In this document: piece by piece, positions 59,540-63,614 of the stretch | Numbering within the stretch: the first letter of the stretch is position 1 | How the letters are laid out: every line of letters begins with the position of its first letter | Source: Granulicella paludicola | Lineage (GTDB): Bacteria > Acidobacteriota > Terriglobia > Terriglobales > Acidobacteriaceae | Assembly: GCF_025685545.1 (NCBI RefSeq) | Contig: NZ_JAGSYC010000025.1 | Span: 806,001 to 870,000 of the forward strand | Length of the DNA: 64,000 bases | Direction: 5' to 3' | Notes under the pieces: generated by a model | What the model was told of the DNA's origin: nothing | The model's input: only the letters and a program-made list of their open reading frames with translations | The model's database searches: none | Translations under genes and position numbers: made by a program

Positions 59540-59767
59540 ATGCAATCCGGACTCACACTACAGATCAACGGCAAAAGCCGCAGCTTTCCAGATCTTTCGG
59601 CACCGACGCCGCTTGCCGAGCTGCTTGCGAAACTGGAGTTGAAGGCCGATCGCATCGCGGTTGAGTTGAATGGCGATATTGCGCCCCGGACCCAATGGCC
59701 CGAATTGACAGTCGCGGAGGGTGACAAGATTGAAGTCGTCCACTTTGTGGGTGGCGGCATGGTTTAG
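59540..59767 (+). CDS. thiS: sulfur carrier protein ThiS
   Basis: 75 residues, ubiquitin-like beta-grasp: LTLQINGKSRSFPD, VELNGDIAPRTQW, DKIEVVHFVGGGMV. ThiS normally ends in Gly-Gly, whose C terminus is adenylated by ThiF and thiocarboxylated. Here two residues (Met-Val) follow the triple Gly, so trimming would be required. Its stop overlaps the convergent GT4 stop by 4 bases. thiG, thiF and thiC are not in the window. Confidence 0.85.
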   Translation: MQSGLTLQINGKSRSFPDLSAPTPLAELLAKLELKADRIAVELNGDIAPRTQWPELTVAEGDKIEVVHFVGGGMV

Positions 59768-60936
59768 CCTTTTCCGGTCAGTTCCTGAAGTAGCGAGGCC
59801 CAGCGGTCGCCGTAATCGCTCCAGCCACCAATCTGCGCGACCTTCGCTTTGGCTGCGCGTCGCATACGTGCCAGCAGATCGCGGTTTTCGACTAGCTGCT
59901 GAAGGCGATCTGCAAGGGCTTTGGGGTCTCGGATAGGAACGATATAGCCTTCGACTCCATCGGTATAGAGGTCGCTGCCTCCGGTATTCGTGGAACTGAT
60001 GATGGCGCAGCCACAGGCCATGGCCTCGGCCATCACCAACCCAAAGCCGTCTTCGATGGAGGGAAGTACCAGCACATCGCTCGCATGCATGAGGGCGATC
60101 AACTGGGGACGTGGTAGCGGGCCGAGGATCTCGACGTCGTCGGTTGGTAAGCGTCCCAGCACCTGCTTGATATCCGGGTCGATGTAGCCGGCCAGCCGCA
60201 GCTTCTTGCCAGGCACCTTCAATTGCGCGAACGCTTGCAGCAGGTAAGGCACCCCCTTGCGAAGGCTGACCGCTCCGGCGAAGACGATATGGAAGCCGTT
60301 CTTGGAGCTACGCTGTGGAGCGTCGGCTGGCATTCGAAGCTCGCGGAGTTCGGCGCCATAGGGGATGACGTGCAGCTTCCCGCGCGGCACGCCCATCTCC
60401 AGATACGACTGCAGCGCGAAGCTGGACGGCACGGTAACGGCGTCAGCGACCGCGTAGATCTCCTCTTCGCGCAGGGTATCGCGGATGTCGGAGACAGGTA
60501 AGTTGACTCCCCAGCGCCGATATTCGTCGCTGACGAGCTGCTCCTGGTAGCGCTGATGAGTTGAACCGCGATCGCAGATAAACTGGCCTCCGCGTTGCTG
60601 CACAATCTGCCCGGTCTTCAACGCGGCGCCGGCGATGGCGATCAGGGCGTCTGTGTCCTCGGGGATGCGGCGATAGGTCCAGTCGTCAAAGCGGAGCGCG
60701 TTCTGCACGCCTAGATCGTCCGAAAGCCGCCGGGGCAGCAGGCCGGTGCGATTCAGGATCGTCTCCGGCGTGTGTAGCCAGGGAAAGGTCTCGACCTTCT
60801 CGCGCACGATGCCTTCGCGCTTCAGCCGCGCCCACGGCCAGGTGGAGTAGATCTTCTGCAGATGGCCGCGCCGCTCCATCTCGCGCGCCAGCGCAAAGTG
60901 ATGGAACACTCCAAAGACAGCCTGCGTGATCTTCAC
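59764..60936 (-). CDS. glycosyltransferase family 4
   Basis: 390 residues. GT-B fold: FHHFALAREMERRGHLQKIY start, GVPRGKLHVIPYGAEL, IVFAGAVSLRKGVPYLLQAF, VLVLPSIEDGFGLVMAEAMACGCAIISS (the EGFGL motif with the retaining Glu). It uses a nucleotide sugar for glycan or exopolysaccharide synthesis; acceptor unknown. Divergent from the GMC-AKR fusion with about 74 bases between, an arrangement suggesting a common polysaccharide or glycolipid pathway. Confidence 0.9.
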   Translation of the reverse strand: MKITQAVFGVFHHFALAREMERRGHLQKIYSTWPWARLKREGIVREKVETFPWLHTPETILNRTGLLPRRLSDDLGVQNALRFDDWTYRRIPEDTDALIAIAGAALKTGQIVQQRGGQFICDRGSTHQRYQEQLVSDEYRRWGVNLPVSDIRDTLREEEIYAVADAVTVPSSFALQSYLEMGVPRGKLHVIPYGAELRELRMPADAPQRSSKNGFHIVFAGAVSLRKGVPYLLQAFAQLKVPGKKLRLAGYIDPDIKQVLGRLPTDDVEILGPLPRPQLIALMHASDVLVLPSIEDGFGLVMAEAMACGCAIISSTNTGGSDLYTDGVEGYIVPIRDPKALADRLQQLVENRDLLARMRRAAKAKVAQIGGWSDYGDRWASLLQELTGKG

Positions 60937-61010
60937 TTGTGCATGGTAACAAGCTGGCCTGTGCCTACCGTCACTTAGAGGTTGCGGCGGCGTATGTCAA
61001 AATCGTTCCT

Positions 61011-63614
61011 ATGCTTCAGGACTTTGAGCGTATCGAGAGCCCTGTACCGGGTTTGCCGGGACAGGGAAGGGCCAATGTGTGCATCATCGGCGCGGGTGCC
61101 GCAGGGATTCTGCTGGCGACGCAGCTTGCGGAACAAGGGTTGAGCGTGCTTCTACTTGAAGCGGGTGGGCTTGATCTGGAGGCACGATCCCAGGAGCTTT
61201 ACCGAACGGAACTGGCAGGGCATAGCTACATAGGGACGACGCGGGGGCGCTTCCGCACGTTAGGGGGCAGCACAACGCAGTGGGGTGGACAGCTGCTGGA
61301 ACTGGAAGACTTCGACTTCGAGCCGCGCAAGCATTTGAAGGGCAGCGGCTGGCCGATCAGGAAGTCCGATCTCACCCCTTACTATGAGCGCGCCCTGCAG
61401 TTCGCGGGCCTGCGACGGGTGGAGCGGGAAGATCATCGCGTGTGGGCCGGGTTAGGGCTTTCGATCTGCGATCTAGGGCCAGAGTTTCATATGGAGTACT
61501 CGCGCTGGTGTCCGGAGCGCGATTTTTCTGTGCTGCGACGGTCGGAGCTGCGAGATTCTCGCGCACTGCAAGGGCTCTATCACGCGAACGCTGTGGGATT
61601 CGTACTGAACGATACGCAAAGCGCAGTTGTGGGTGTACGGGTTCGCGGCTACGAAGGCACTGAGGTCGTCCTGACTGCGGACCGCTACGCGATGGCGTTG
61701 GGCGGGATCGAGACAAACCGTCTGCTACTGCAACCGGTCGATGGAGGTGAGGCACCATGGCAGAGGAATGGCCTGCTGGGGCAGCACTTTCAGGATCACA
61801 TCTCATTGAACGGCATTCCAATTAGAGAAGTGTCGACGCAGCCCGTAGCGCGCTACTTTGGCCATGTGAGTCTGGATAACTTTCGTTATCACAACAAGAT
61901 TCGGCTAAGTCTTCAAGAACAGGTGAAGGCTCGCTCGCTGAATGTAGCGGGAACGATCGGACCGTGGCGAAAGGATGATCCCGAACGTGACGCGGCGATG
62001 GTGATGCTACGCGAGATTGTCCGCAAGGGAAGACGGCCGAGCGTGGCCGAGTGGGCGAAGGCTGCACGGTACTTTCCGGGGATCGGATGGGAGGCTATTG
62101 AACAGCGCCTGCTCGGCGACCGACCGGATGGCGGACCAGGGTGGAAGCGATTGATGCTGTCCGTTCATTCAGAGCAGTCACCGCGATCCGCCAGCGCCAT
62201 CACGCTCACGGAGGAGCGCGACGCGCTGGGAATGTTACGGGCGAAGGTGGACTGGCAGATCTCCGAACTGGAGCTGCTGACACTCCGGACGTATGTGAAG
62301 CGGGCGATGACCGTCTTTGCAGCTCGGCGTTTCGCAAAGGTGGCGCCTCCGAAGGGCTTCTTCGAGGACGACGAACTGGTTCGCTCCATGTGTTCGGACA
62401 GCTACCACCACATGGGCGGCACGCGCATGTCGAGTGATCCGCGATTGGGAATCGTCGATGTCAACCTGAAGGTGCATGGAGTAGAGAATCTATACGTCTG
62501 TTCGAGCTCGGTATTTCCGACGGGCGGCTTTTCAAACCCGACGCTGACGATCCTCGCGCTGGCGACGAGGCTGGGCGACCATCTTCGGGCGAAAGCAGTG
62601 GGTGAGGGAGTCTGGCTGCCACAGCCGCTTGAACGGCGCGAGCCGATGCGCCGCGTGGAGATTCCGGTTGCTGGTCTGGTTAAGTCTGCAAAGCCATCGC
62701 CGCAGCTGGGCTTCGGCTGCTCGTACCTCCTGGGCCCCGGGGCAGACCGGTCAACTTCGTTACGATTGCTGGCTGCGGCCTACGATGCGGGCATCCGGCA
62801 CTTCGATACGGCCAGGCTCTATGGTCAGGGCGAATGCGAGCGGCTGCTGGGTGAGTTTTTGCGCGAGCATCCCGAAGCGACGGTAACGACCAAGTTTGGC
62901 ATCGAGCCACCGAATTTGGCGCAGCGAGCGATGACCGCAGCCGGACGACGTGTGAGTGCGCTCGCGGGTGCAGCAAGGCTGCTACGCGGCTCAGGCATGG
63001 TAAAGTTCAATTCCGCCAACGCGCGAGCATCGCTGGAGCGTAGCCTGCGCGCGCTGGGCAGGGAACGGATCGAACTGTTTCTTTTGCACGAGCCCGAGCG
63101 GCTGGAGCTGGTACACGACGATCTGCTGCGGTTTCTAGACGACGCGCGGACAGCAGGGAAGATTGGAGGCTTCGGCATCGGTGGCGAGGCCGCGCGCGTG
63201 GCTGAGCTGCATGGCACACGCCGGGCGTACGCTCCAGTGCTGCAATTCGAACATTCGATCTTCAGCCCGGAGCTGTCGCTACCGGATGCGAGGCGGATAC
63301 ATTATCGGACGTTCGTTCGACCGGCAGCGACGCTACTCCAGCGACTTAAGACAGAACCGCAACTTGCATGGTGGTGGTCAGAGATGGTGGGTGCGGACCT
63401 GCAGGAGCCTTCTGTGGTGTCGCGGCTGCTGTTGCGAGCGAGCTTGGACCAACACCCCGGCACGATGACATTGTTTTCGACGACCCACGAACATCACATC
63501 TACGAAAACGTAACTGTAGCTGAAGACAGCAATCTCGCCGAGGCCGCCGGGCGACTGGCTAAGCTCATTCGGGAAAATGACTTGGGCATCGGGGCAGCTT
63601 TACATGGAGGGTAG
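61011..63614 (+). CDS. GMC-type FAD oxidoreductase fused to aldo/keto reductase
   Basis: 867 residues from ATG 61011; ATG 60939 is upstream but not family-like. Residues 1-545: FAD-binding GMC fold, CIIGAGAAGILLATQLAEQG (GxGxxG 27-32), GGSTTQWGGQ, catalytic His pair 466-467 in YHHMGGTRMS, and FPTGGFSNPTLTILALATRL. Residues about 562-867: aldo/keto reductase, GYGCSYLLG-type start, tetrad Asp, Tyr in FDTARLYGQGE, Lys in TTKFG, His in FLLHEPERLE. GMC enzymes oxidise alcohols or sugars; the AKR could reduce the product. I know of no common protein with this domain order. GT4 is divergent next to it. Confidence 0.85.
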   Translation: MLQDFERIESPVPGLPGQGRANVCIIGAGAAGILLATQLAEQGLSVLLLEAGGLDLEARSQELYRTELAGHSYIGTTRGRFRTLGGSTTQWGGQLLELEDFDFEPRKHLKGSGWPIRKSDLTPYYERALQFAGLRRVEREDHRVWAGLGLSICDLGPEFHMEYSRWCPERDFSVLRRSELRDSRALQGLYHANAVGFVLNDTQSAVVGVRVRGYEGTEVVLTADRYAMALGGIETNRLLLQPVDGGEAPWQRNGLLGQHFQDHISLNGIPIREVSTQPVARYFGHVSLDNFRYHNKIRLSLQEQVKARSLNVAGTIGPWRKDDPERDAAMVMLREIVRKGRRPSVAEWAKAARYFPGIGWEAIEQRLLGDRPDGGPGWKRLMLSVHSEQSPRSASAITLTEERDALGMLRAKVDWQISELELLTLRTYVKRAMTVFAARRFAKVAPPKGFFEDDELVRSMCSDSYHHMGGTRMSSDPRLGIVDVNLKVHGVENLYVCSSSVFPTGGFSNPTLTILALATRLGDHLRAKAVGEGVWLPQPLERREPMRRVEIPVAGLVKSAKPSPQLGFGCSYLLGPGADRSTSLRLLAAAYDAGIRHFDTARLYGQGECERLLGEFLREHPEATVTTKFGIEPPNLAQRAMTAAGRRVSALAGAARLLRGSGMVKFNSANARASLERSLRALGRERIELFLLHEPERLELVHDDLLRFLDDARTAGKIGGFGIGGEAARVAELHGTRRAYAPVLQFEHSIFSPELSLPDARRIHYRTFVRPAATLLQRLKTEPQLAWWWSEMVGADLQEPSVVSRLLLRASLDQHPGTMTLFSTTHEHHIYENVTVAEDSNLAEAAGRLAKLIRENDLGIGAALHGG

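Follow-up and report, generated by a model that had tools for sequence, protein, structure and literature searches.

A GMC oxidoreductase fused to an aldo/keto reductase in Granulicella paludicola: a candidate two-step oxidoreductase of sugars

The window analysed here is a stretch of 64,000 nucleotides from the soil acidobacterium Granulicella paludicola (assembly GCF_025685545.1, contig NZ_JAGSYC010000025.1, positions 806,001 to 870,000 of the forward strand). It bears a gene in which one protein has been made from two redox enzymes that are neighbouring genes in many relatives—a GMC flavoprotein and an aldo/keto reductase (AKR). An earlier note, made from the letters alone, had described a single frame of 867 residues with a GMC half and an AKR half, and both the open reading frame and Pfam bear this out (Table 1). 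A longer product of 891 residues would result from an alternative GTG start at 60939. However, the open frames of the two full-length relatives (genomes G007 and G015) start just three codons 5' of the equivalent ATG, and the ATG at 61011 is hence favoured. Apart from the two family matches, Pfam reports short stretches of dinucleotide-binding families at residues 21–54.

Table 1 Features of the fusion gene and its neighbour, in positions of the window.
Feature	Position	Strand	Remarks
GMC-AKR fusion gene	61011..63614	+	867 aa plus stop; full-length relatives G007 (72%) and G015 (71%)
GMC flavoprotein half, residues 1-530	61011..62600	+	Pfam GMC_oxred_C; predicted FAD motif G27-A-G29-A-A-G32
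Codon of H466, invariant GMC His	62406..62408	+	aligns with the His of glucose and fructose dehydrogenase
Codon of N509, partner in the GMC catalytic pair	62535..62537	+	N in 94/99 rows
Linker, residues 531-562	62601..62696	+	34-38% identity, low model confidence; holds Met546 (62646-62648)
Aldo/keto reductase half, residues 563-867	62697..63611	+	Pfam Aldo_ket_red; eight core strands predicted in order
Codon of D599, AKR tetrad	62805..62807	+	45/45 rows
Codon of Y604, AKR tetrad	62820..62822	+	45/45 rows
Codon of K628, AKR tetrad	62892..62894	+	45/45 rows
Codon of H693, AKR tetrad	63087..63089	+	45/45 rows
Divergent GT4 glycosyltransferase gene	59764..60936	-	Pfam Glycos_transf_1, E 1.2e-31; functional link uncertain

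The GMC half is recognised by Pfam GMC_oxred_C at residues 391–518 (E 2.7e-27, above the cut-off). GMC_oxred_N gives no match at E 1e-3 in the fusion, and in the relatives L042 and L060 it stays slightly below the cut-off. The GxGxxG motif pointed out in the earlier note (G27/G29/G32) is present in all 99 aligned GMC rows, whereas the tandem catalytic His proposed there holds for one residue only: H466 is found in 99/99 rows and H467 in 75, and the conserved catalytic pair is H466/N509. A model of residues 1–534 reaches a mean pLDDT of 92.6, and its best fold match is fructose dehydrogenase (8jej_A, Z 40.3, rmsd 3.5, 431 aligned residues), followed by choline oxidase (Z 35.4) and glucose dehydrogenase (35.2), with C-glucosyl/C-glycoside oxidases and pyranose 2-oxidase at Z of about 33–35. 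Profile, dinucleotide motif, catalytic pair and predicted fold place this half within the GMC family, the catalytic set appears intact by alignment, and FAD binding is predicted. As far as the model can tell, most of its nearest folds belong to sugar oxidoreductases; since choline oxidase ranks second among the enzymes matched, fold likeness does not fix the substrate. With the sugar-oxidising GMC enzymes—the large subunit of Gluconobacter fructose dehydrogenase, the FAD glucose dehydrogenase of Burkholderia, and pyranose/C-glycoside oxidases—the fusion shares the fold (Z 33–40), the FAD motif and the His/Asn pair. It differs from them by an identity of 15–23% in structural alignments and by the AKR half, which only the fusion carries. 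Inspection by eye recognised no small or cytochrome subunit among the neighbours of the fusion.

For the AKR half, the match to Pfam Aldo_ket_red (E 5.3e-23, 82 bits against a cut-off of 24) covers residues 566–750 and only positions 2–166 of the 291 of the profile. The fusion has in common with the AKR superfamily the tetrad D599/Y604/K628/H693, which is identical across all aligned AKR sequences, and the order of a (β/α)8 barrel, whose eight strands alternate with helices at residues 565–822 of the whole-protein model. A complete AKR with its tetrad, as claimed before, is thus supported as to tetrad and predicted strands, but the C-terminal half departs from the Pfam model. This departure is shared by the three fusions and by the three scanned split AKRs of the same clade (L031, L038 and L050), whereas L033—the one scanned AKR of the convergent kind described below—matches the whole profile. 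Hence, the coenzyme site is not assured. Putative positions of an NAD(P)H site are Q745 (45/45 rows), S823 (41/45) and N833 (41/45), and segment 763–766 mostly reads I-H-H/Y-R across the alignment, which we take to differ from the usual coenzyme-site motif. A second departure from the superfamily concerns position 825, where the three fusions bear T or S and 33/45 rows bear K or R. In AKRs, the residue at the equivalent position may bind the 2'-phosphate of the coenzyme; as a guess from the alignment, T or S might alter the coenzyme preference, perhaps favouring NADH in the fusion. The best-scoring AKR sequences of solved structure are 1ynp (named only as an oxidoreductase), perakine reductase and L-galactose dehydrogenase, with DepB scoring lower. 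An entry titled 'DON 3-epimerase chain D' (9wk1) is also found among the matches of this half to solved sequences; a publication on it did not turn up in the open-licence PMC literature, and the reading given below makes no use of it.

The linker is the least constrained part of the protein: comparing the window's fusion with the other two, its identity is 34–38%, as opposed to 70–73% for the domains. Modelling of the region around residues 545–562, which the earlier note had suggested, yields pLDDT values below 50 throughout residues 539–562. The whole-protein model has a pTM of 0.57, so the relative placing of the two halves is not readable from it, and fold searches with this model return GMC proteins only, among the matches listed. 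Met546 is conserved in all three fusions and lies near the point where the aligned separate AKRs begin; to judge from the alignment, it may be what is left of the start codon of a formerly independent AKR gene.

How common the fusion is was followed in three overlapping genome sets: 61 genomes, a draw of 300 from the family and a draw of 297 from the phylum. Full-length fusions without a stop occur in the window's own genome (G000), G007 and G015 among the 61 genomes, or 3 of 28 within the genus, where some genomes are incomplete. In the family draw, the uninterrupted fusion occurs in G000 and G007, G015 not being among the matches listed, and in the phylum draw in G000 only. The fusion is hence conserved but rare. 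Near-full-length single-frame matches in G135, G145, G204 and G253 contain one or two stops between the halves, which therefore are separate genes there; partial matches crossing the junction in G067, G137, G281, G113 and G279 contain stops as well. A further candidate, an open frame of 923 aa in G012, was rejected because of stops between the genes. Among plasmids, 325 records matched, and a query coverage of at least 80% was reached in two, both of Cupriavidus metallidurans.

Could the fusion be an artefact of sequencing or assembly? We found nothing in favour of this, and consider its probability negligible. One uninterrupted frame, 71–72% identical, is present in three separate genomes, and the codon positions that differ among the fusions' domains are mostly third positions (61–64% of third, 14–27% of first and second positions). 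A stop or frameshift at 62640–62700, raised in the earlier note as a sign against the fusion, is absent from the frames of the window, G007 and G015. Comparing the domains of the window's fusion with the other two gives a dN of 0.20–0.25 and a dS of 2.3–3.5 or not computable. Both halves are thus under purifying selection, with a freer linker, and the artefact was rejected.

Far more often, the two enzymes stand side by side as separate genes. A scan of a species collection was evaluated for the best 80 of 392 relatives, kept as loci with flanks of up to 8 kb—many contigs end sooner—and with gene calls and starts from our own scripts. The GMC tree, calculated without L061 and L041, which duplicate L030 and L028, and without L046, whose frame is broken, defines a clade of 28 loci around the window's GMC half, with L041 and L061 placed via their copies and L046 by similarity only; the AKR tree and counts leave out the weak matches L108 and L112. 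In 24 of the 27 assessable clade loci (best 80 of 392), an AKR lies beside the GMC gene: fused in L041 (which is G015), 1.65 kb off across another gene in L064, and adjacent in the others. The gene in between at L064 is an ORF of 519 aa (L064:9592-11151) in a locus otherwise made of CgeB-GT, GMC and AKR, and in L046, a lichen MAG, one in-frame stop breaks the GMC frame beside the AKR frame (L046:8004-9542). Clade members without an AKR are L042, L060 and L089, the contig of L054 ending too soon for a call; G018 carries the AKR without the GMC. The two are therefore not inseparable. Among the 52 loci outside the clade (again of the best 80 of 392), an AKR lies within 2 kb in three—L079, L105 and, weakly, L108—while L112 has one weak AKR match 4.5 kb away, and several of these contigs are short. 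By chance, about 1% of loci would be expected to have an AKR neighbour within 2 kb, as roughly estimated from the 11 AKR genes in the 4.96 Mb of the window's genome; since the loci are related, no p-value is given for the adjacency.

The two halves also diverge together. For 34 paired loci, drawn from the scan, from further genomes and from the CH34 plasmid, distances among the GMC halves correlate with those among the AKR halves (r 0.84, Spearman 0.80), a value as high being reached in 0 of 2000 permutations. The AKR tree repeats several groups of the GMC tree (L043 with L044, L038 with L045, L055 with L165, and the fusions with L050); L169, L066 and L051 are placed differently in the two trees, in which many forks are weak. 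Of the 31 separate pairs among these loci, 30 are codirectional, and 23 of these have a gap of at most 100 bases by script-called starts. Cupriavidus metallidurans CH34 (NC_007974, 1691846-1694432) exemplifies such a pair, with both halves in the same order as in the fusion and 40% identical to it, but as two ORFs. Other arrangements are convergent (G016, G025 and G010:C4, corresponding to L033, L034 and L035, and L169) or AKR-first (Methylocystis, Caballeronia, L079 and L105), and these loci belong to other GMC clades except for L169. By these sequence comparisons, the two halves are evolutionarily paired and belong together, and to this extent adjacency and co-variation support the earlier note. 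This weighs against the fusion being an accident of co-expression in which the halves serve unrelated substrates: such an accident would leave the pairing in several phyla and several gene orders, as well as the correlated divergence, unaccounted for. We regard it as rather improbable, even though the linker is poorly conserved and of low model confidence, and though the biochemical link between the halves is a proposal from sequence.

Within the genus, four genomes (G002, G010, G012 and G022) carry the two genes as a split pair, whose identity to the fusion is about 42%. Descent of the fusion from this pair was rejected: a constraint to one clade gives a p-AU of 0.0002, albeit with long branches present, and the fusion lineage is therefore a separate one. 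The earlier note had proposed that separate genes in close relatives would mark a recent fusion artefact. Separate genes are indeed there, but three species share the fusion, and their lineage is not that of the split pairs. In both trees, the fusions join the Phenylobacterium pair L050, and for the GMC half also L060, with supports of 90–95; however, long branches (L050, L060, L065 and L066) make the sister group unsure. Judging by these trees, the fusion lineage may possibly have been imported.

A link to glycans had been suggested from the divergent GT4 gene at 74 bases. The gap is confirmed (60937–61010), and GT4 adjoins the fusion in G000, G007 and G015. Yet this neighbour is a weak indication of a cell-surface glycan pathway: a GT4 match (E up to 1e-50) is present in 17 of the 28 same-genus genomes, and in 11 of 12 genomes without the fusion thiD and ThiS lie near it—the same surroundings. 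These 12 are from 14 genomes without the fusion, G013 and G019 being left out; in 0/12 is a GMC or AKR found near GT4 within the fetched 11 kb. As proof of a joint pathway, GT4 was hence rejected. A second site is informative here. Ten genomes of the genus were examined, and all have a cluster of a PRC/MgtE_N/CBS gene, a glycosyltransferase that we take to be CgeB-like (Pfam gives Glyco_trans_1_2) and an Nramp gene, as identified by Pfam for the G002 copies and by phmmer in the other genomes. Between glycosyltransferase and Nramp, four of the ten carry the GMC-AKR pair, G018 an AKR alone, and five neither, among the latter all three fusion genomes. The G018 locus (G018:C2, L036:8703-10744), with CgeB-like glycosyltransferase and AKR, without GMC, before Nramp, has the look of a partial cassette. 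In the genus, the redox pair thus has a glycosyltransferase as neighbour at two sites, CgeB and GT4, and since each glycosyltransferase occurs without it in some genomes, the pair has been added or lost.

In the clade at large, the scan (best 80 of 392) shows a CgeB-like glycosyltransferase next to 15 of 23 separate pairs (at L055 partly, at a contig end), the assignment resting on Pfam for one homologue; the queries did not find it at L043, L044, L045, L046, L048, L050, L065 and L066. Two of these loci have other glycosyltransferases: at Rhizobacter L066, the pair is preceded by GT2 and GT4 genes and followed by a methyltransferase, and at Phenylobacterium L050, a GH16 gene precedes it and a GT2 gene follows. 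The GMC gene of L042, which has no AKR partner, is clustered with glycosyltransferases and a bacterial sugar transferase. For the pair of C. metallidurans, no glycosyltransferase was recognised by eye among the neighbours. In the other GMC clade, Caballeronia has an annotated glycosyltransferase, AKR and GMC in line, and the annotation shows no glycosyltransferase near the pair of Methylocystis. The glycan link is therefore better supported by the split pairs beside other glycosyltransferases than by GT4, though not at every locus. A gene for a GH31 glycoside hydrolase just beyond the right end of the window (G000:C19, L025:15435-17813) separates the fusion from a HAD-like gene; the hydrolase gene has no match in the fetched stretch of G007.

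Taken with the intact catalytic sets, the pairing and co-variation of the halves and the fold of the GMC half, these neighbourhoods lead us to favour, tentatively and short of an even chance, a two-step oxidoreductase on a single chain. By means of H466/N509, the GMC half would convert one sugar hydroxyl, possibly within a glycoconjugate, into a keto or aldehyde group, and its FADH2 would be reoxidised by O2 or another acceptor. The AKR half would then use one NAD(P)H to reduce the carbonyl. If, as seems most likely, this happens at the same carbon and from the other face, the substrate would be epimerised, presumably in the cytosol. The redox-neutral conversion envisaged in the earlier note would hold for the substrate only, since the electrons of FADH2 do not refill NAD(P)H; for the cell, the reaction is not redox-neutral, with FADH2 passing to an acceptor and NAD(P)H being spent.

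Pairing and co-variation are equally expected if the halves catalyse two steps of one pathway at different positions, with the GMC oxidising one group, the AKR reducing another carbonyl, and no epimer being formed; the fusion would then merely secure an equal dose and the closeness of two enzymes. Convergent and AKR-first arrangements speak for this possibility as well, which we consider somewhat doubtful: a pair without other constant redox enzymes would fit a closed couple slightly better. Alternatively, the AKR might serve for clean-up or control by converting a reactive keto product back into the alcohol from which it came; the GMC genes without an AKR at L042, L060 and L089 indicate that a pathway can end with the oxidised product. 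However, a futile cycle is unlikely to have been fixed as a fusion under the purifying selection seen above, and this role is quite improbable.

An epimerisation by oxidation and re-reduction at one centre would have precedents. In mycobacteria, DprE1/DprE2 invert one sugar centre by flavin oxidation followed by NAD(P)H reduction; DprE1 is of the FAD_binding_4/ALO kind, DprE2 is an SDR, and the two are separate proteins. Unlike DprE1, the fusion has neither FAD_binding_4 nor ALO among its Pfam matches. DepA and DepB show that epimerisation is possible with an alcohol dehydrogenase and an AKR: in the passages of PMC6056672 and PMC9427786 drawn upon here, DepA oxidises C3 of deoxynivalenol and the AKR DepB re-reduces it to the other epimer. 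As far as these passages go, the proposal resembles this system in that a first enzyme makes a ketone, which an AKR then reduces to the other epimer; it differs in that DepA is a PQQ enzyme, that DepA and DepB are separate proteins and that their substrate is a mycotoxin, whereas the first half of the fusion is a GMC flavoprotein. Both halves of the fusion belong to known families; a description of their fusion, domain order or pairing was not found among the papers listed by searches of the open-licence PMC literature, as judged by titles and the openings of abstracts.

If the favoured two-step reading is true, it names a widespread two-enzyme unit hitherto without an assignment, provides a single protein ready for testing tandem action on one sugar centre, and predicts unusual sugar epimers in the glycans of these Acidobacteriota; if the halves are independent, a rare fusion of two ordinary enzymes is left. 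The more far-reaching idea—a single-chain epimerase of glycans or lipid-linked sugars using flavin and NAD(P)H, as a further independent solution to oxidation and re-reduction, with GMC-AKR as a portable glycan-editing module—is speculative and on balance unlikely. At the clade locus of Bradyrhizobium diazoefficiens SZCCT0138 (L060:5006-12304), two GMC genes are accompanied by genes for an epimerase-family protein, for a UDP-galactopyranose mutase (GLF) and for a FAD_binding_4/ALO oxidase that presumably resembles DprE1, which makes a furanose-type sugar cluster possible.
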